In this document: positions 3,938-62,084 of the stretch, in pieces
How positions within the stretch are numbered: position 1 is the stretch's first letter
How the letters are laid out: every line of letters begins with the position of its first letter
Assembly: GCA_001599975.1 (NCBI GenBank)
Contig: BCIO01000003.1
Span: forward strand, 496,001 to 560,000
Length of the DNA: 64,000 nucleotides
Direction: 5' to 3'
DNA from: Cystobasidiopsis lactophilus
Taxonomy: Eukaryota; Basidiomycota; Agaricostilbomycetes; Agaricostilbales; Chionosphaeraceae
Program-made: the position numbers and the translations under genes
Notes under the pieces: generated by a model
Database searches by the model: none
Told to the model about the DNA's origin: nothing
The model's input: the letters and a program-made list of their open reading frames with translations, nothing else

Positions 3938-5437
3938 GATAGAAAGAGTGTGACTGAGGCGAGAAAAGCGCCTGGGAAAGGGGTTGGCAGGGTATCTGGC
4001 AGCCTCAAAACATGAGCGCAGGCTTCGAAGCAGGCGAGGGCACGGGCGGCTTGCATAGGTCAATAGCGCTCGGGTTCACGAACGAGTCCGGCTCGCAAGG
4101 TTCCTCGGGCAGAGTTTGGTGGAGGAGAGGGAAGCGAGGAGCTGGCTCGAGCTTCACGCCACACCTTGGCGACAACGGATGCTTCGTGGATGTTTCAGCC
4201 TCACTGGCCCACAATCTAAGCATTAATCGACGTGTTGCAGTCATCGGACGATCGCTGCGTTCTAGGTTCATGGCCTGACGGGACCGCATGTCTCTGGCGG
4301 GCTGGCGAAGGCGAAAAAGCTGGTGGAAGCTGGGTGAGAGCGAGAGCCGGAGGTCACTGGCTTGCGCTTATGGCAAGAGCTTGTGTTGCACCATAGCTAT
4401 GTAGATCAGAACTAACATACAAACGCCCAAGCGTGGTTCGGATCAGCGAAAGAGAAGAGAGACGCGAAAGAAGACAGCTTGGGTGGCGTCGAGAAATTTT
4501 GGCGCGCCTCGACATTGTGGGCTAAGAGTAGGTTATACGGACACGCACCTTGAGACGTGCCGGCTCAGGCGGTCAGATGTGCCAGAAGAGCGAGCGCACA
4601 AGCGAAATCTGCAATTAGGATCCGGATCCCTCTCCGGCAAAACATGGCGAGACTCTGGCCAGCATGCAAATGCGACAACTCTTTCGCCGCATTCGTGTTG
4701 CGAGCTGGAGATCTTGGCGAGCGGCCTGAGCAAGGAGGTGCTGAGGAGTCGTTGGCGGACAGATGGGAATACGATGATGAAGGTACTGGCGGCACGAACG
4801 GTGGCAATCAGGTCTGCATTTGATGTAGTACTCGTAGAGAAAAAAAGGCGACCAGTCTGATCAGTCAGGCCCAATACTGAAGTCACAATGAAGCAGTCTA
4901 TCGGCCCTCCCTCCAGATGCGCATGATATATTTGAGCGGCTCTGTTCTGTTCTGTGACTCTGCTTCGTGAATCTGCTCTCCGTGCTAATGAGAAGAACAA
5001 CAGACGCACATGAATGTTCCTCTTGGCTCCCGGCAGGTTAGGCTCGCTCCAAATGGAGTTACATTGTCGGCATGTTGTCTAGCCTACGCCGACGCTGTCC
5101 TTCGCCCTCTTCAATCTCAACGCCTTCTCTCGCTTGATATACGTGTAGCAGACATGAGCAAACACGATGACCGACCAACGTGTATCCATCTCGAGCGAAG
5201 AGGGCAGACGCAAGACCAACAAAACAACAAGCCAGGCAGGCCAATCGACTGGCCTAATCGCCCCGACCAGACTGCAGTGGCGCTGGCCGTAGCTGACACA
5301 CACGGCTCGGAGGAGCCTAGACGCAGTACAGCAAACCATCAGTAAGAGCCGAGCACCGTCGTTCGCGAACAAGCAGTGGCCTTCGCTTGCTTTTTGGAGC
5401 CGGACAAGCAACTTGTGCGCAGGACCCTTGCTTGGCC
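3938..5437. other. 1.5-kb gap without a convincing gene
   Basis: Lies between the NADPH oxidase start and the divergent MYND gene. Several open stretches occur, such as 4533-5009 and 5079-5450 on the minus strand, the latter with hydrophobic segments. I could not chain them into a gene with consistent splice sites, and they resemble no family I know. The gap is long for this otherwise compact region, so a decayed or unusual gene may be present. Confidence 0.35.
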
Positions 5438-6347
5438 ATGTCCTCCTCAAATCTCGCGTTGCAGCTCGGTCCCGACTGGGAAGATGTGGCTCGGGCTAGA
5501 GCTCTGGAATACGAAGAGGCAATTGCAGCCGAAACCAAGTGGTGAGCACCTTTGCCTCCTCCGCTTCGCCAGGCTGTGGACCTATTGCTCGAGGTCAGCT
5601 GCAAAGTGTGCAAGAAGACTGACGTGGCGCTGAGCCTTTGTGGGGCCTGCAAAGGTGACAACTTGATTCTGCCCGGCAGTGGTGATCATGAGCACTGAAG
5701 TTCCATTGGAGCTGAACAGGCGTCAGATACTGTGTTGGTCTTCATTTGCACTTTGCATTAATGGAACTAACGAACATAGGGTTCAAAGTCGCCCGCCTGT
5801 CAACGAGCCGACTGGAAGTCTGAGCAGTGAGCTTGTCCCACTGTCACGGTCTGTGATGGCGCTCAGAGGTTCCATTCGACGTTGGCAGCAAGAAACGCTG
5901 CCGGGCTTATCAATCAGTGAACCGCTCTATCGATGCTCGCGAGCCGATGTTTTTGGCTGGGGCCCGCAACTGCATGGACATGCTGGACGCCTTTCTCCAG
6001 CAGCACTCCTCAGTCTGGCCTATGATGTATGTGGCCCTGCTGCGAAAGCGTCTGCTGGCGGATGGCTGTGCCGAGGAAGACCTCTTGGCCCGCACTCTGG
6101 CCGTGTTGGCTAAGTCGGAGTTGATCGGCCAGATTTTGTGGAACGCTGCTGGGAGGAAGGCAACATCAACGGGACGGTCCAATTCCGCTGTATGCGCCTG
6201 CTCGACACCAACTCTCTCTCTGTCCTCGACAAAGTGGGCGTCTTCAAAACTGTACAGGAAGCCGTCAAGCTGAACCCAATCCATATCGTCTTCGTATTTT
6301 CGCTTTACCCGACCACAGCCGTTATAACGACGCAAGCGTATGCCTGA
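5438..6347 (+). CDS. MYND-type zinc-finger protein
   Basis: It starts with ATG at 5438 (MSSSNLALQLGPDWEDVARA). A MYND finger emerges only after splicing four small exons: CCKVCKKTDVAL, CGACKGVRYC, then GSKSPACQRADWKSE. This supplies the expected CxxC...CxxC...YC...CQ..DW series of zinc ligands. MYND fingers bind proline-rich partners in chromatin and signalling proteins. Downstream exons (MFLAGARNCMDMLDAFLQ; VQFRCMRLLDTN) look coding but match no domain I recognise. The frame changes near 6130 between LLADGCAEEDLL and FVERCWEEGNING, so an intron or misread exon remains unresolved there. The stop used is TGA at 6345-6347. The finger is well supported; the rest of the model and the function are not. 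Confidence 0.6.
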
Positions 6348-23378: not shown

Positions 23379-24021
23379 TTAGAAAACCAGAGCGGCCTGT
23401 ACGCGGCTGTGCAATAAGACACGGGCCAACAATGGAGGTCTAGAGGGAGAAGGCAACAACGTACACCCTTGGTCTTTTTGTCACCGCCCAACTCGAAGCT
23501 GTACCGGCCGCGGTGAGCTACTGTACTCAAATAGTAAGGTAAGGAAGGCGTCGTACTGCTTGCATCGCTTCAAAGTCATCTGTCGGCGCATCCGAAGTGA
23601 GCACCAAATCGACAGTGCTCAAGTAGGCGGACGAGAACCCACCTGCATCTTGTACTTGCAGACGGTGCACTCCAATCGCAGCACCACCTTCTTGGTCGTC
23701 TTGGCCTCTGTTCGCGCACACCACCAATTCCATCAGTGCCTGCAACAAATTGAGGGAACCGGGCAGCGAGACGCACTTTTGTGGAAGACGGGCTTGGTCT
23801 GACCTCCGTAACCGGACTGCTTCCTGTCGCTGTTTATACCCACCAACATCAGCCACGCAGCCAAGGCAGGGCAGAGGACGGAAGGCCACGAACTAGCGGC
23901 GCTTGCCCTGGGCGACGGTGGACGCCTTGCCGGCCTTGTACTGGGTCACTTTGTGCGGCGTGTGTTTCTTGCACGCTTTGCCCGCGCAGTACGTCCGCCG
24001 AGTCTTGGGGATGTTGACCAT
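23379..24021 (-). CDS. RPL42: 60S ribosomal protein eL42 (L36a/L44)
   Basis: A zinc-binding protein of the large ribosomal subunit near the tRNA exit site. ATG 24021 opens [20 protein letters not shown], then [19 protein letters not shown]. Later exons give [37 protein letters not shown], and [17 protein letters not shown] ending at the TAA at 23379-23381. The two Cys pairs (YC...AC and ECTVC) are the expected zinc ligands. Residue 56 is Pro (QTKP), the form linked in yeasts to cycloheximide sensitivity, whereas Gln there gives resistance. Four short introns, as often seen in ribosomal protein genes. The final exon is only six codons and is reached with donor GTACGT. Confidence 0.93.
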
Positions 24022-38366: not shown

Positions 38367-39686
38367 TTAGATGGGCAACAAGCGAACTGCGTTGGCTACC
38401 ACTTCGCAATGGATGACCTGTTCATCAGTTGTCGAATTAGCACAAGCGAAGACAGAGCTGATGGAGGACAAAGACGAACCAATTTGTCGCCTCCCACACC
38501 GTTCTCCCTGTGCATCCCAATGGACTTGGTCAGTTGGCATCCAGCATGCAAAGATGCAGGAGACATACCGGATGGTGAAGTTGACATTGATTAACCTGTT
38601 CGTCATCAAGAATGTTGAGCTCGAGCTGAGCAAATAGGCAGACGCCAAGAGACAAACCCATTAGCGCCCATAGCAGCCGCTTCTTTTTGCAGCTCGGCTA
38701 AAGCGGCCTTCTTTACCGCGGCGCTCATGGCGGCCGAGAATGGCTGTCGTCACAAAGGTGGCGGTGTCACGGTCAGATGGGGTCGACGGTGAGACATGAG
38801 TGACGACTTTACCTGGTCATTGCCTCTGTTCATAGTCAAGTAGTTGGTCAACTTGAAAACGTGTGAGCTGATGTGTGAGCACAACGAACCTAGGTGGCGA
38901 GTCGTACGCTCCCCAACTGTCGAGCGATGCGTGAGAATGTGAATGGCTAGCGCCAATGGGGTAAACCTTACACTGTCCCAACCGCCTGTAATTAATATAC
39001 ATCAGTTCACGGACCGTTCTGAAAGAAGAGTCAGCAACGTACAGCGACAATCCTAAAGCCAAAGATGGTGGCGGTTTCCGAGAACGGCATAAACGGGACC
39101 AGCCTGGCGCGTTCGCATGCTTAATAAGCACAATGAAGAGAGTTGAAGAGGAGAAATGATAACGCACGGCCCAGAGGAGAACGGATTAGTCGGGAACTGG
39201 AACTGGGGGAAGTTGCCGGCTTGGGCAATCTGCATGGGGCCGAACGGCATTCCTCCCATGGGACCCATCGGCGGCATCCCTGTGGTTCTTGGATCAGAAG
39301 TGGCCCGAAATCTTGTCGCAGTCGGAGCAAGGACTAACCCATGCCCATGCCCATTCCCTGCGAGAAGGCTTCAGCTGTTGTCGACTGAAGGCGAAGAGGA
39401 CGAAGCGTACCATTCCTCCCATCGGCGGCATGCCTTTTGAATACGAATAAGCTTGCTGACTTCCAACATCTTGGACCAGAAAACTTTACCCATGCCCATA
39501 CCCTATTGCAAACACTTCAGCTTTGGTCAAAGGTCTACAAAGAGACAGCCGTTTACCATCGCGCCCATTGGAGGTCGAAAGGCTCCTGGTGTTGCAAGGC
39601 CGTTTCTGAATGCGCCACTTTGCGTCAACCTACGGGAAGAAAGTTCGTTAAAAAGAATGTTGCTACTGACCCCATCCAGAAGGCAT
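38367..39686 (-). CDS. YbjQ/DUF74-like domain protein with Met/Gly/Pro-rich leader, built of microexons
   Basis: The frame can be followed through about thirteen exons. Tiny exons at 39490-39502 (13 nt), 39411-39433 (23) and 39339-39357 (19) encode a leader of PPMGGM/GMGMG repeats. It continues as GMPPMGPMGGMPFGPMQIAQ and NFPQFQFPTNPF. The next exon reads LVPFMPFSETATIFGFRIVA. Then come exons of 14 nt (38972-38985), 27 nt (38890-38916) and 11 nt (38813-38823), then AAVKKAALAELQKEAAAMGA, then 27 nt (38569-38595), 28 nt (38480-38507) and VIHCEVVANAVRLLPI. The part from ATIFGFRIVA onward follows the YbjQ/DUF74 pattern (EY/IV.G, ALEEL..EA..LGA.AVV.V, ..GTAVR). YbjQ proteins are suspected metal or ligand binders; their role is unsettled. 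The first exon is uncertain. Confidence 0.6.
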
Positions 39687-42703: not shown

Positions 42704-43068
42704 CCTGTCTGAAACTTGTCGTCGTCAGTGGCGGAAACAGGGCCGCGGTGGCGTTGCCCAGTGGTCGAGCCATCGGTGGTTCTCGATGATTTCCATCTGC
42801 TCCCTCTAGCATGCTCTTCAAGATGCTCGATTGCTGGGATAAAACGGCGCTATGTGATGGTGATGCCCAACTTCCTTCTCCCTTTTCATTGTACAATCGT
42901 CAGTGGAAGTATGTTTCCTAGAACTACATCAGATGCTCCTTGTCCCGTCAATCCGAAAAGGGGTCACACATCAATCACGGCCTGAAACGTACGGCCTGCA
43001 ACGTAGCCCAGCACGCCCACCGCTAGGCTTTGATCAAAACGCCGACAGCGTGAGGCAAGAGACTGGCA
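42704..43068. other. Intergenic, no gene seen
   Basis: 365 bases between the TMEM205-like start and the 3' end of the next minus-strand methyltransferase gene. No supported open frame. Confidence 0.4.
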
Positions 43069-44095
43069 TCAGAGTCTTGCGAGCTGTGAGAGTTCATGAT
43101 TGAGCCGCACAGAAACATCGTTGAGATGGGGAGCATACGGCCTGTGAAGCTTGACATCCTTCCACTCGCCGCTCTGAATAGCAAGATGCCCACTTCGCCT
43201 GTTCAGCTCGCAACCACCCATAGCAGCTCGCCCTTTCGGACCACCAAGTCAGCCGAGACCGCCTGCAAAACATGGACAACCCACAAAGAAAGCTTGTCCA
43301 GAACGACTGAACGCGCAAGGTGAGAGGGTCATCGGAAGCGACATGCTCGAACAAGATCAAACTGCCGCCTGGCTTCAGCATGGAGTGCATGCGTTTGAGG
43401 AAGCCTTTGGGGTCGGGAATGCTGCACAGCACTTGCACCGAGACGACGCAGTCAAACTGAGTGGATCCAGAGACACCGGCTTTGGCCAGCGCTGATTGAT
43501 CTTCGATAGAGGCGCCAACGATCTGGTACTTGGACGACAAGCCATTCTTTTCGATGGAGGCGCGCAGTTCGCCGTGGATGGCCTCAAAGGGCTCAATGCC
43601 GTAGATCTTGTCGACCTTGCTGGCATCGTAGTACTTCAACGTCGCACCAGATCCAGGGCCGACTTCGAGAACGGTCTGTAGGACGACTTGTCAGAATAAG
43701 GTCATTCGGTCTAGAAGACTCTTAGAAAACTTGCGCCGTAAGCTTGGGAAACGACCTCGCGTTTGACATCAGCTGTCGCATAACGTGAGCTTATGCTAGG
43801 GCAAGACAGCGGTGTCAAAGAGGTCTTACTGAACATCGTGTCAGCGATGTTGAGCAGCCCGCCAAAGCCATTGGAGAAGATCAATTGCCACCATACGGAA
43901 GGGGAGAACAAAGCATTTGGCTTGTAGTATTGGCTGAGGATGGCGTTCCACACTGATCGACGTCGAACTCGTTCTGAAGCGTCTCTCGCGCTCTCAAAGA
44001 AAGTGAAGCTCACATCCGAATCTGATGACCATGCCAACATAGACCCAAGGGAGCACCAAAGAGTTTAGCAGACGCTGGCCGAGGAGCAGTTCCAT
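43069..44095 (-). CDS. METTL7-like SAM-dependent methyltransferase, tandem copy 1
   Basis: A membrane-anchored class I methyltransferase of the METTL7/OMS1-like type. ATG 44095 opens with a hydrophobic anchor (MELLLGQRLLNSLVLPWVYV). After a splice comes NAILSQYYKPNALFSPSVWW and SNGFGGLLNIADTMF. The SAM site is VLEVGPGSGATLKYYDASK, then IYGIEPFEAIHGELRASIEK, YQIVGASIEDQSAL and FDCVVSVQVLCSIPDPKGFL. LKPGGSLILFEHVASDDPLT follows. The last exon, read in the correct frame, gives ELNRRSGHLAIQSGEWKDV. The C-terminus runs about 27 residues further than in copy 2 (LHRPYAPHLNDVSV...). Substrate unknown; METTL7 enzymes methylate thiols or lipids. Confidence 0.8.
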
Positions 44096-44805: not shown

Positions 44806-45805
44806 TCACGCTGCATTGATGTTGATCTCCTTCCATTCGCCACTCTGGATGGCAAAATGGCCACTTGGCCTGTTAAGCTCGCAGCCACCAAACAGAGATC
44901 GCCCTGATCCCAGGTCAGTCCATGGCTAACTCCTCTACGGGTTGACCTACACAAGAAGTTGGTCCAGAAGGTCTGCGCCCGGGAGGTGATGGGGTCCTCG
45001 GAAGCAACGTGCTCGAATAGAATCAAGCTGCCACCCGGCTTAAGCATGTTGTGCATTCGCTTGAGGAAGCCTTTGGGGTCGGGAATGCTGCATAAGACTT
45101 GGACCAAGACGACGCTGTCGAATTGAGCAGATCCAGTGACTCCAGCCTTCGCCAAAGCGGCTTGGTCCTCAATGGAAGCGCCGATGATCTGGTATTTCGA
45201 CACCAAGGCGGTCTTTGCAAGCGACTCGCGCAGTTCGCCATGGATAGCCTCGAATGGCTCGATGCCATAGATCTTGTCGACCTTGCTGGCGTCGTAGTGC
45301 TTTAGAGTGGCGCCAGCTCCAGCTGAACAAATGACGCTCAGTTGAGAACTGCACAGAGCAGAAAAAGAATCTCACGGCCGACTTCAAGCACGGTCTGCGT
45401 CGAGTAGAACAGAAGTGAGCCAGGACTAGGAACGCTATCTTCTCGGATCAACTCACGCCGTAAGCTTGAGAAACGACGCCGCGTTTGACATCCGCTGCAG
45501 TTCTCGGTCAGCGAGTGATGTCGAGGGACAGGATGCAGTCTCCTACCGAACATGGCGTCGGACCCGTTTAGCAAGGTGCCGAAGCCATTGGAATAGCAGA
45601 GCGACCACCACATGGAAGGCGAAAGCAGAGCAGTCGGCTGGTAATATTGGCTGATGACGGCCTTTTTGACTGTGTGGGAGAACTCAGACTGTTCCTCATA
45701 ACGACGGGAACCAGAGCACTCACAGCCATAGCGAACAATCAAAGCCACATAGATCCAGGGTTTAAGAAAGACGTTGAACAAGCGCTCGCCAAGGAGGAGC
45801 TCCAT
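44806..45805 (-). CDS. METTL7-like SAM-dependent methyltransferase, tandem copy 2
   Basis: A close paralogue of 43069-44095. It starts at ATG 45805 (MELLLGERLFNVFLKPWIYV); an in-frame Met 28 codons upstream exists, but copy 1 supports this one. Exons give VKKAVISQYYQPTALLSPSM, SNGFGTLLNGSDAMF and the SAM motif with GAGAGATLKHYDASKVDKIY. Then SKYQIIGASIEDQAALAKAG, VLVQVLCSIPDPKGFLKRMH and GGSLILFEHVASEDPITSRA. The last exon gives GCELNRPSGHFAIQSGEWKE and ends ININAA at 44806. The intron positions match copy 1. It is divergent from PSF2, so the 430 bases between the two ATGs form a shared promoter region. Confidence 0.8.
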
Positions 45806-57126: not shown

Positions 57127-59370
57127 ATGTCCGAAAAGAAGGGATCCGACTACACCACGAGCGTTGTCGCAGCACACGAGCTCGGCGGAGGTGCCGACCG
57201 CGCTGAAGAGGACCACCGCTTGGAGGGCCTTGGTGAGCAATCTGCTTCCTTTTGCAGCTCTGCACAGCTCACATTTCATTCTGCACAGGCTACAAGGCCG
57301 AGTTGTAAGCCGGCTGATTTGCCCCGACAGCCCTTCGGTCGCTGATTGGCATTCAATCAGCCACCGAGAGTTCACGACATGGACTGTCTGGTGTGTCGCT
57401 TTCGCCGTCACTGGCTTGTTCGTCGGCATTTCTGGGTCTCTCTTCTCCACTGTATGTGTCCATCCTTTCCGTTGCTTGCCGTTCCGGGCTGATTGGACTG
57501 CGCAGATTGGTTACTCGGGAACGGCGGGTCTCGTCTGGGCATGGCCAGTGTGCGCCATCTTCGTTATCATCGTCTCCATGTGCATGGCAGGTTCGTTGTC
57601 TCGTCCTTCTTCAAGCAACGTTCATGTCCTGAACCGATCTCGCAGAACTGGCGAGCTCTATGCCGACCGCGGGTGGCCTCTACTACGCTTCTTATCACCT
57701 CGCTCCTGATGGCTACGGTCCGCTTTGCTCGTGGCTCACTGGCTGGTCGAACATGCTCGGTCAGGCCACTACCGCTCCTTCGACCAATTGGATTTGCGCC
57801 AGTACCATCTGCGCTTGCATTTCGTAAGTTCTCTATCGCCACCCCATCTAGAGCAGCTCAGCTTATCCACGGTCTTGCAGTCTCTACATTGACTACACCC
57901 CGAAGGCTTTCCACCAGTACTTGGTCTACCTCGGCTTGCAGACCATGCATGCTTGCCTCGCTTGCGTGCCCACTCGCTATGTCTCTTACATCAACACGTA
58001 AGCCCTTTCATATCTGGCATCACTATCAAGACTAATCAGAACGTTTTCAGTGCTGGTGCCTGCATGCAGGTCCTGCTGATCTTCATTTTCGTTAGTGAGT
58101 GACACAGAACCCCACAGAAGTGCGCATTCCCAGGCTGACCACCATCCCTTCCAGTCGTCATGCCCGCTGCGACTATTCAACGTCCTCGCTTCTTGACCAA
58201 CAAGGAAGTCTGGGGCACACTGACCAACTCGACCGGCTGGCCCGATGGCTTCTCGTTCCTTTTGGGCTTCTTGTCTGTCATCTTTGTGCTCTGCGGCTAC
58301 GATGCTCCGTACGTCTCACTTTCCTGCTCTTTTACTTCATGCTCATCGGTCGCCACAGTTTCCACTTGTCGGAGGAGACCAAGGATGCCAGCCGCAGCGT
58401 GCCCAAGGCTATCGTCGCCACTGCCGTCTCCACCGCCATCAGCGGTTGGGCCGTTTGCATAGTCTATGCCTATACGATGATTGATGGTGAGTTAAAAAGA
58501 TCAAAATTCTGTTGGCAGGCATTGATTTGGCCGTCCTCCAGTTTCGGGCATTCTCGGCTCGTCCGCTGGCTCACCTTTGGCGCAATACCTCTTCACCAAC
58601 TTGACCCACTCCGGATCCGTCGCCATGGCAGTGCTTTGCATCGTCTCCCTGTGGACCTGCGGCATGGGCTGCTTCACCGCTTCGTCCCGCGTCGCCTTCG
58701 CCTACGCTCGTGATGGTGTTTTGCCCGGCTCGAGGTGGTGGAAGCAAGTGAACCCGGTCACCAGGACTCCAGTCAACGCTGTGTGGCTTGTCTGGCTTTA
58801 TGGCGGTCTCCTCGGCCTCCTGTCGCTTGCGTCGCCTGTTGCCATCAACGCCGTCTTCTCCCTTGTCTCTATCTCTCAATTTGCCGCCTTCACCTTCCCC
58901 ATCGGTGTCAAGCTATGGGCACACTTCAAGGGCGTCGACAAGTTCAAGCCGGGCCCATGGAACCTGGGTCGCTGGAGCATTCCCCTCAACATTGTCGCCG
59001 TCGCTTTCATCGCCTTCATCGTAAGTAGCGGTCGCTTTGGGTGACCTCACTGGCGCTGACCCTGTTTTTAGATCCCTGTTCTGTGCTTCCCGGCATACCC
59101 CATTGGTGCCGGCCTCAATGACCAGACCATGAACGTGAGTTGACGCTGCGTTCCTTTGACCGTCTGAGCAATCACTGATACGCTCCTTAGTACACTGCCC
59201 TGCTCTACGGTGGCTGCATGATCCTCACGACGACGTGGTACGCGCTTGGGGCAAGGAAGTGGTTCAAGGGCCCTGTCAACAACCTGCACGAGGCACCCGG
59301 GCACGCCTTCGAAGGCGTTGAGGCGATCCGGCCCGAGGCTCCTTATGAGGAGAAGCTTGGTGACATGTAG
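57127..59370 (+). CDS. GABA/choline-type amino acid permease, tandem copy 1
   Basis: A 12-helix APC-superfamily permease of the fungal Uga4/Hnm1 group. ATG 57127 opens MSEKKGSDYTTSVVAAHELG, then a 16-nt microexon (57289-57304) leads into the first helix: REFTTWTVWCVAFAVTGLFV. Family marks follow: ELASSMPTAGGLYYASYHLA, GWSNMLGQATTAPSTNWICA, HLSEETKDASRSVPKAIVAT, SSRVAFAYARDGVLPGSRWW, KQVNPVTRTPVNAVW, and LNIVAVAFIAFI. It ends APYEEKLGDM at the TAG at 59368-59370. About ten introns of 40-65 nt, with phases consistent throughout. Transport of GABA, choline or another amino compound cannot be told apart from sequence alone. The tandem copy at 59810 has the same exon plan. Confidence 0.87.
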
Positions 59371-59809: not shown

Positions 59810-62084
59810 ATGTCCGACAAAGGAGAGAAGGCTCCACAGGCTGCTGCCAGCATCGTGTCGGCCACAGAGTTCGGTGGCCATGACCGTGCGGTGGAAGACG
59901 CCCGCCTCGAGGGGTTAGGTAGGGGACCTGCATATCGGAGTGCGCCTAAGCCGAGCTCGCTGACTACCATTGAATACAGGCTATAAGGCCGAGTTGTAAG
60001 CGCACAAGCCCTATCAAGGCACCCTGCCGCCACTGACAACTTGTCGCAGCCACCGAGAGTTTACGACATGGACCGTTTGGTGTGTCGCTTTCGCCGTCAC
60101 TGGGCTTTTTGTTGGCATTTCTGGTTCTCTTTTCTCCACCGTAGGTCTAAATTGCACGTTCGCTGATAAGGAGCTCTGAACCGAAGGGACCGTGACAGAT
60201 TGGCTACTCCGGAACCGCGGGTCTCGTCTGGGCATGGCCAGTGTGCGCTTTCTTCGTCATCATCGTTTCTATGTGCATGGCGGGTACGATTCGTCCGCCT
60301 TCTCCTAGGTCGAACTGCACTAAAGCGACCGCAGAACTGGCAAGCTCGATGCCCACTGCCGGTGGCCTTTACTACGCGTCCTACCACCTCGCTCCCGAAG
60401 GATACGGCCCGCTCTGCTCTTGGTTGACTGGCTGGTCGAACATGCTCGGGCAAGCCACCACCGCACCTTCGACCAACTGGATTTGCGCGAGCACAATCTG
60501 CGCTTGCATCTCGTGAGATCTTGCGTCATATCCACCTCTTCAACCCGCATCCTCATCTTCTGTACACAGTCTGTACATTGACTACTCCCCTAAAGCGTTC
60601 CACCAATACCTGGTGTACCTCGGGCTGCAGACGATGCACGCCTGCTTAGCTTGCGTGCCCACCCGCTATGTTTCGTACATCAACACGTAAGCACTTCCAT
60701 TTTCATACCCAACAAGCACCGCTCATGAGAAAGAGTCAGTGCCGGAGCATGCATGCAGGTCCTCTTGATCTTCATTTTCGTTAGTAAGTGCGAATCTATC
60801 TTTGCTGCTGTGAGTCCTGTTGACGGCGGGCCTCGAAGTCGTTATGCCTGCAGCGACTACCCAACGGCCTCGTTTCTTGACCAACAAAGAGGTCTGGGGC
60901 ACTCTGACCAACTCCACCGGCTGGCCGGACGGCTTCTCCTTCCTGCTGGGTTTCTTGGCCGTCATCTTCGTGCTCTGTGGCTACGATGCTCCGTACGTTT
61001 TTTTTTGATAACTTGCGAAAGCCTACGGGCTGAGAGACGCACGCAGCTTCCATTTGTCGGAGGAGACCAAGGATGCCAGCCGCAGCGTGCCCAAGGCTAT
61101 CGTCGCCACTGCCGTCTCGACCGCCATAAGCGGTTGGGCCGTTTGCATAGTCTATGCCTATACAATGATTGATGGTGTGTTTTTGTTTGGGGTGGATCCA
61201 CAGCGAAAAAGTGGCACTGACATCGGCCTTTGCAGTTTCGGGCATTCTCGGCTCGTCTGCTGGCTCACCTTTGGCCCAGTACCTCTTCAACAACCTGACG
61301 CACTCAGGTTCCATCGCCATGGCTGTGCTCTGTATTGTCTCTTTGTGGACTTGCGGCATGGGCTGCTTCACTGCCTCTTCTCGTGTCGCCTTTGCCTACG
61401 CTCGGGATGGCGTCTTGCCTGGCTCGAGGTGGTGGAAGCAAGTGAACCCGGTCACCAGGACCCCAGTCAACGCCGTGTGGCTGGTCTGGCTTTACGGCGG
61501 CCTCCTCGGCTTGTTGTCCCTTGCGTCACCTGTTGCGATCAATGCCGTCTTCTCCTTGGTGTCTATCTCGCAATTTGCCGCTTTCGTTTTCCCCATCGGT
61601 GTCAAGCTTTGGGCCTACTTCAAGGGCGTGGACAGGTTTAAGCCAGGCCCATGGAACCTGGGTCGCTGGAGCATTCCCCTCAACATTGTTGCGGTCACTT
61701 TCATCGCCTTCATCGTAAGTTGTCCAACGCATAAGGTCTCACTTGACCTGATCGAGATATTAGATCCCTGTGCTCTGTTTCCCGGCTTTCCCCATTAGCG
61801 ATGGCCTCAACGCTCAGACTATGAACGTGAGCCGCTATTCCTTCTCTTACTCTTTGCCTTTGCTGCGGCAGCCAGATTGACACCACTTCCAGTACACGGC
61901 TTTGCTCTACGGTGGTTCCATGACCCTAACGTCGCTCTGGTACGCGCTTGGGGCCAGGAAGTGGTTCAAGGGCCCCGTCAACAACCTCCACGCGCCCGGC
62001 CACGCCTTCGAGGGCGTCGAAGGCATCAGGCCCGAGGCTCCTTACGAGGACAAGATCCCAGCCATGACTCCGCCTCTGAAGTGA
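59810..62084 (+). CDS. GABA/choline-type amino acid permease, tandem copy 2
   Basis: A tandem paralogue of 57127-59370 with the same intron positions, including the 16-nt microexon (59980-59995). ATG 59810 gives MSDKGEKAPQAAASIVSATE, the most divergent part. The membrane core is nearly identical in protein: REFTTWTVWCVAFAVTGLFV, SMPTAGGLYYASYHLAPEGY, SEETKDASRSVPKAIVAT, DGVLPGSRWWKQVNPVTRTP. The C-terminus ends EDKIPAMTPPLK at the TGA at 62082-62084. Exon-by-exon base identity is uneven (see findings). It converges on the mitochondrial carrier gene, with only about 100 bases between stops. It may differ from copy 1 in regulation or N-terminal control rather than substrate, which is an inference from where they differ. 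Confidence 0.87.

Follow-up and report, generated by a model that had tools for sequence, protein, structure and literature searches.

The region 38367-39686 of the window (the whole 64,000-nucleotide stretch of DNA that was analysed) was read on both strands. Its minus strand very probably carries a genuine coding gene, in a fungus rich in introns; the gene would encode a YbjQ-type protein of about 152 residues, be spliced constitutively by intron definition and belong to a family with high intron turnover. The gene lies between a predicted MFS transporter gene (41122-39943) and a predicted ChAPs gene (38089-35008; the ChAPs match is 481 bits, as would suit a fungus), both of which are also on the minus strand. 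The genome comprises 22.1 Mb in 8 contigs.

Gene models were obtained with a gene finder trained on the genome itself, using 263 kb of sequence (the window and 20 stretches) and no annotation. The learned splice signals resemble GTRAGT at the donor and GCTGAC at the branch point, with CAG as the acceptor, and the median intron length is 57 nt. Between 39431 and 38367 the gene finder predicts eleven exons, which measure 21, 19, 112, 61, 14, 27, 13, 86, 27, 28 and 51 nt from 5' to 3' and are separated by introns of 53-69 nt. Six of the nine internal exons (19, 14, 27, 13, 27 and 28 nt) are no longer than 30 nt. The exons are given below, with their residue identities to two paralogs, L087 and L086a, where these were compared.

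39411-39433, minus strand: exon B1, 23 nt, carrying the repeat unit MPPMGGM; the translation start chosen by the gene finder is the ATG at 39431, giving an exon of 21 nt (39431-39411).
39339-39357, minus strand: exon A2, 19 nt, carrying the repeat unit GMGMGMG; its omission costs 4.4 nats and the paralogs have no counterpart.
39168-39279, minus strand: 112-nt exon with the final MPPMGPMGGM unit, then NFPQFQFPTNPFSSGP, which can be aligned with the paralogs; identity to L087, 15 of 31 compared residues.
39043-39103, minus strand: 61-nt exon, LVPFMPFSETATIFGFRIVA; identity to L087, 14 of 20 residues.
38972-38985, minus strand: 14-nt microexon AVGTV, holding a G-x-V stretch common to L001 and L002, two other YbjQ loci; its omission costs 8.2 nats; identity 2 of 5 (L087) and 3 of 5 (L086a).
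38890-38916, minus strand: 27-nt microexon WGAYDSPPR; identity 7 of 9 (L087) and 6 of 9 (L086a).
38813-38825, minus strand: 13-nt microexon GNDQ, with a weak donor, GTAAAG; identity 2 of 4 (L087) and 3 of 4 (L086a).
38658-38743, minus strand: 86-nt exon holding the GAN motif of the YbjQ match; identity to L087, 18 of 29 residues.
38569-38595, minus strand: 27-nt microexon LINVNFTIR; identity 5 of 9 (L087) and 3 of 9 (L086a).
38480-38507, minus strand: 28-nt microexon ENGVGGDKL; identity 6 of 9 (L087) and 0 of 9 (L086a).
38367-38417, minus strand: last exon, 51 nt including the stop codon; identity to L087, 8 of 16 residues.

The gene can be classed as a fungal microexon gene, having internal exons of 30 nt or less, one coding frame and consensus splice sites, although the 13-nt exon is followed by a weak donor. 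An early model that placed two introns, of 24 and 25 nt, in 39042-38986 was rejected, and a single intron of 57 nt is preferred there because it matches the intron lengths of the genome and joins the YbjQ frame. The preliminary description had proposed a one-frame chain of about thirteen exons, at least eight of them shorter than 30 nt. The gene finder bears this out for the eleven exons from 39431 to 38367, and the paralogs do so for those from 39279 onwards, but the exons upstream of 39433 have weak splice sites and are doubtful. The core holds six internal microexons, and a total of eight (13, 23, 19, 14, 27, 13, 27 and 28 nt) is reached only by counting the weak exon A1 and the whole 23 nt of B1. 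An 11-nt exon that had also been claimed was not found.

The gene model scores 12.0, and the same eleven exons are returned with a score of 11.5 when the 16-kb chunk that contains them is excluded from training (60 genes and 360 introns in this hold-out training). These values are low, in that the genes used in the last retraining round all scored above 20. In the hold-out run, however, the best prediction in reversed sequence scored 6.4. There were 69 predictions scoring above 10 in the real sequence and none in the reversed or the Markov-1 set (one set each), and the reversed set gave one prediction above 5. Dropping any single exon among exons 2-11 lowers the score by 4.4 to 11.7 nats. It is highly improbable that the chain arose by chance, through relaxed splice rules acting on a non-coding stretch or a decayed copy. 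The coding score per exon is small and the splice sites of the upstream exons are poor, as such an origin would predict, but no decoy scored above 10, and 69 of 111 domain residues, taken across the exon joins, are identical in L087. The paralog alignment thus contradicts a chance origin for 39279-38367, whereas chance could account for the upstream exons.

The preliminary description had extended the gene to 39686. The ATG there is out of frame (it reads MPSGWG and then a stop) and the in-frame upstream ATG is at 39675. Three doubtful exons lie upstream of the core:

39671-39675, minus strand: doubtful first coding exon, ATGGG, in frame.
39557-39605, minus strand: doubtful exon 2, 49 nt with a CAG acceptor, or 73 nt from 39629 with a TAG acceptor; it ends in PPMGAM.
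39490-39502, minus strand: doubtful exon A1, 13 nt, a GMGMG unit; the sites of the next intron are weak.

Support is poor for introns 2 and 3 and for the start. Both the donor and the acceptor of intron 3 are poor (site sum 2.1, compared with 4.9 at the 1st percentile of trained introns), and forcing A1 into the model reduces the score from 12.0 to 5.3. Starting at the ATG of 39675 gives the longest model, which scores -10.8 if intron 1 uses the TAG acceptor and -0.5 if it uses the better CAG acceptor. Nevertheless, the repeat (PPMGAM, GMGMG, MPPMGGM, GMGMGMG and MPPMGPMGGM) reads in frame across the upstream and the repeat exons, so the upstream exons may be used, old or optional. It had been described beforehand that the repeat units are distributed over microexons, and this holds, as does the frame arithmetic: each of these exons shifts the frame alone, but 13 plus 23 nt gives 36 and 23 plus 19 nt gives 42.

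It follows from this arithmetic that skipping of the 13- and 23-nt or the 23- and 19-nt pair would remove 12 or 14 residues in frame, and the repeat microexons might then form a regulated cassette that tunes the number of Met-rich units. We consider this rather unlikely. The phases permit it, the units follow the order B-A-B-A-B, in which introns occupy equivalent positions, and the upstream exons have weak splice sites, which often accompany optional exon use; the weak sites may, however, simply mean that the exons are unused. Duplication of an exon-intron-exon-intron unit was examined through intron similarity. Introns 2 and 4 were the most similar of 78 intron pairs (z 3.5), but this score is inflated by the branch-point consensus that both contain, and introns 3 and 5 are dissimilar (z 0.2). 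The paralogs have no counterpart of the Met-rich repeat exons, which may represent a local expansion near the start codon. If the repeat exons do prove optional, they would offer a simple case of microexon pairs altering a low-complexity tail in frame. For the microexons of the core, we think that inclusion is constitutive.

The spliced protein matches Pfam PF01906 (YbjQ_1) with 26.5 bits, which passes the curated cut-off of 23. The 86-nt exon alone gives 12.9 bits and its unspliced read-on 18.2 bits. The match spans profile positions 53-87 only (35 of 103), which is the GAN region. In local alignment with the YbjQ domain of L001 the protein reaches a z of 12, matched by none of 1000 shuffles, and its C-terminal half was likewise equalled by none of 1000. 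The HMM search that the preliminary description called for agrees with a YbjQ/DUF74 domain in the C-terminal part. With L002 the alignment is weaker (z 2.2, 39 of 1000 shuffles as high), and there the C-terminal half is within chance (94 of 1000). For the N-terminal half, shuffles were as good in 6 of 1000 cases with L001 and in 3 of 1000 with L002. A bacterial YbjQ profile gives the protein 8.6 bits only, and a search of solved structures yielded a single chance match (E 1.9). The L001 protein was read from its Pfam match, disregarding an intron that the gene finder had placed within the open YbjQ frame.

The protein resembles the YbjQ_1 (DUF74, UPF0145) family in exceeding the cut-off in the GAN region and in a G-x-V-x-G stretch that aligns with L001 and L002. 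It differs in that the final GTA motif reads NAV, and in its Met-rich tail and a DSPPR..DQP.SA motif, both of which are missing from the bacterial consensus. Its relative L001 also passes the cut-off of PF23025 (YbjQ_2, the YbjQ-like domain of C2 domain-containing protein 5) with 33.6 bits, whereas the protein itself is absent from the YbjQ_2 matches at E 0.5 and L087 scores 15 bits, below the cut-off of 29.1. With YbjQ_1, the paralog L086c passes (23.3 bits) and L087 and L086a fall short of the cut-off of 23 (21.2 and 19.9 bits), so that the label is borderline for the family. Judged from these comparisons, we call the domain a putative divergent YbjQ-type domain. The gene would accordingly be read as encoding about 152 residues, or more if upstream exons are used, with a Met/Gly/Pro-rich N-terminal tail followed by this domain. 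Because the Pfam name is 'putative heavy-metal-binding' and the core model has 11 Met in its first 30 residues, our guess at a putative role is that the domain and its tail could bind a soft metal, for example copper. Among the matches listed for YbjQ, UPF0145, DUF74 and PF01906 in the literature, there was no title on fungal YbjQ proteins. A side observation is L023 (positions about 3965-5836; G000:C5), which is predicted to encode a coiled-coil-like protein whose YbjQ domain gives matches to YbjQ_1 as well as to YbjQ_2 of the C2CD5 family.

Domain searches of the genome place the family at seven sites including the gene described here. The others are L087 (C4, 731.6 kb), four places on C3 at about 1.2963-1.3025 Mb (L086 and L089) and one on C6 at 1.407 Mb; two more distant YbjQ genes lie elsewhere in the genome. 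A scan of viral contigs with L087 found no relative. The same gene finder supplied the paralog models, which score 25.8 (L087), 9.7 (L086a), 8.5 (L086c) and 15.9 (L089, whose first exons changed in the hold-out run). L089, within the C3 array of paralogs, is also predicted as a microexon chain (exons of 15, 22, 19 and 23 nt). In the domain, 62% of residues (69 of 111) are identical between the gene and L087, and 40, 41 and 45 residues are identical in the three other modelled copies. L087 and L086a can both be aligned gap-free with the residues that the 14-, 27-, 13-, 27- and 28-nt exons encode. In L086a, all five of these stretches are contained in just two predicted exons (145 and 65 nt), whereas in L087 the 14-, 13- and 28-nt stretches are uninterrupted and each of the two 27-nt stretches holds an intron of its own at another place.

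Intron positions were compared over the shared domain (333 alignment nt) in the gene, L087, L086a, L086c and L089; the middle copy of L086 and L088 have no gene model and are outside the comparison. The five copies have 8, 5, 4, 4 and 9 introns, respectively, in this domain. Five pairs of positions agree exactly (1.0 expected at random, P 0.004), nine within 1 nt (3.1 expected, P 0.006) and 13 within 3 nt (7.3 expected, P 0.03). Exact sharing above the random expectation indicates that some of the introns are old. The gene and L087, however, have a single position in common to within 3 nt, and for three of the eight introns of the gene none of the four modelled paralogs has an intron within 3 nt. 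On these models intron turnover in the family is high, and gain in the gene and loss in its paralogs would both fit. The interest lies in this turnover within the family rather than in the single gene: the paralogs amount to a small natural experiment, and because the closest modelled pair is 62% identical yet shares one intron position, the timing and mode of intron change could be dated by sequencing near relatives. A broader version is that repeated intron gain at copy-specific places has cut the whole YbjQ-like family into microexons and that one copy has pairs of microexons encoding Met-rich repeat units, perhaps metal-binding, and varies the number of these units by skipping such pairs in frame; this we regard as unlikely.

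We also think it very unlikely that the gene was acquired from bacteria and then filled with introns, a possibility that had been raised from the bacterial type of the domain. Such a history has been published for an actinobacterial alpha-amylase in Agaricomycotina (PMC3584928), and another YbjQ gene in the genome, L002, shares 59% identity with an actinobacterial record. However, the bacterial profile reaches just the 8.6 bits given above, plasmid records contain no match to the gene at E 1, and the closest relatives to emerge, from searches of this genome and of plasmid records, are paralogs within the genome itself. High intron turnover is supported by the 8 and 5 introns of the gene and L087, with one agreement within 3 nt. 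Bacterial transfer of this gene is not supported by the sequences compared.

For transfer with later gain of introns, L002 is a stronger candidate than this gene. It is a classic YbjQ gene (positions 980-1806; G000:C3, about 121.9-122.7 kb) with seven introns and three consecutive microexons of 30, 25 and 15 nt among exons of 115, 30, 25, 15, 43, 106, 39 and 53 nt. One of its introns is GC-AG; the gene finder disallows GC donors and missed the gene, which was spliced by hand. Its best matches are an actinobacterial record (59%) and a Chloroflexi record (58%), with plasmid records of other bacteria reaching up to 51.5%, and a search of solved structures returned 1y2i (E 0.00011) and one chance match. 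In bacterial and archaeal genomes there were 142 pattern matches to L002, of which 61 encode a relative, and all 61 align with L002. The residues of the three microexons are 58, 68 and 44% identical across these loci, compared with 32-71% for the remaining exons; the loci are a selected set, since they were found by exact 8-residue query patterns.

For the gene between 39431 and 38367, the reading that we prefer is constitutive splicing in which the spliceosome would pair splice sites across the introns of 53-69 nt. Under such intron definition, exon length would hardly be limited and microexons would be included constitutively. Several of the microexons may then be remnants between closely spaced introns, in keeping with the paralog copies in the genome, which differ in intron positions. 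Work on intron definition in S. pombe is cited in PMC11121469. Gene finders that penalize short exons would miss most of the protein.

Published parallels are known. In Phanerochaete chrysosporium, P450 genes contain microexons of 2-10 residues and frequent introns of 45-55 bp, and exons of 29 bp or less occur in 41 genes (PMC1184071); these are spread over P450 families, whereas here they make up six of the nine internal exons of one small gene. The alpha-amylase of Agaricomycotina averages 13.3 introns per gene, with gains and losses between copies and possible sliding (PMC3584928); dense introns are common to both cases, but transfer was demonstrated there and not for our gene. A single-nucleotide exon in Fusarium CYP621A (PMC12940212) and a microexon switch in Trichoderma Xlr2 (PMC11121469) resemble the present case as fungal microexons that keep the frame or switch isoform. 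These are lone microexons with RNA evidence, in contrast with the chain here.

Short exons are also frequent in this genome. The 64 genes with scores above 20 contain 316 internal exons, of which 47 measure 30 nt or less; three of the 47 are shorter than 5 nt and may be artefacts. Among the 69 genes scoring above 10, one besides the gene described here has six microexons, out of 15 internal exons. The eL42 gene (23379-24021 of the window), which served as a splice control, has a predicted internal exon of 23 nt; the alignment of its product to solved eL42 chains covers 106 of 106 residues. L002 was the second control for microexons. As microexons are common in the genome and have been published for other fungi, the wider novelty is reduced, and the gene seems to be a clear instance of an architecture that is widespread in this genome, not a gene of a novel kind.

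Some further predicted genes were noted. L013 (3016-5027) has six internal exons that do not exceed 30 nt. In the window, tandem amino acid permease genes at 57127-59370 and 59810-62084 (Pfam was run on the first only) have almost identical predicted exon patterns, in which one exon measures 16 nt. Two adjacent genes at 43023-44095 and 44806-45805, whose products we take to be methyltransferases from the way they read, have similar predicted proteins and differing predicted exon patterns.
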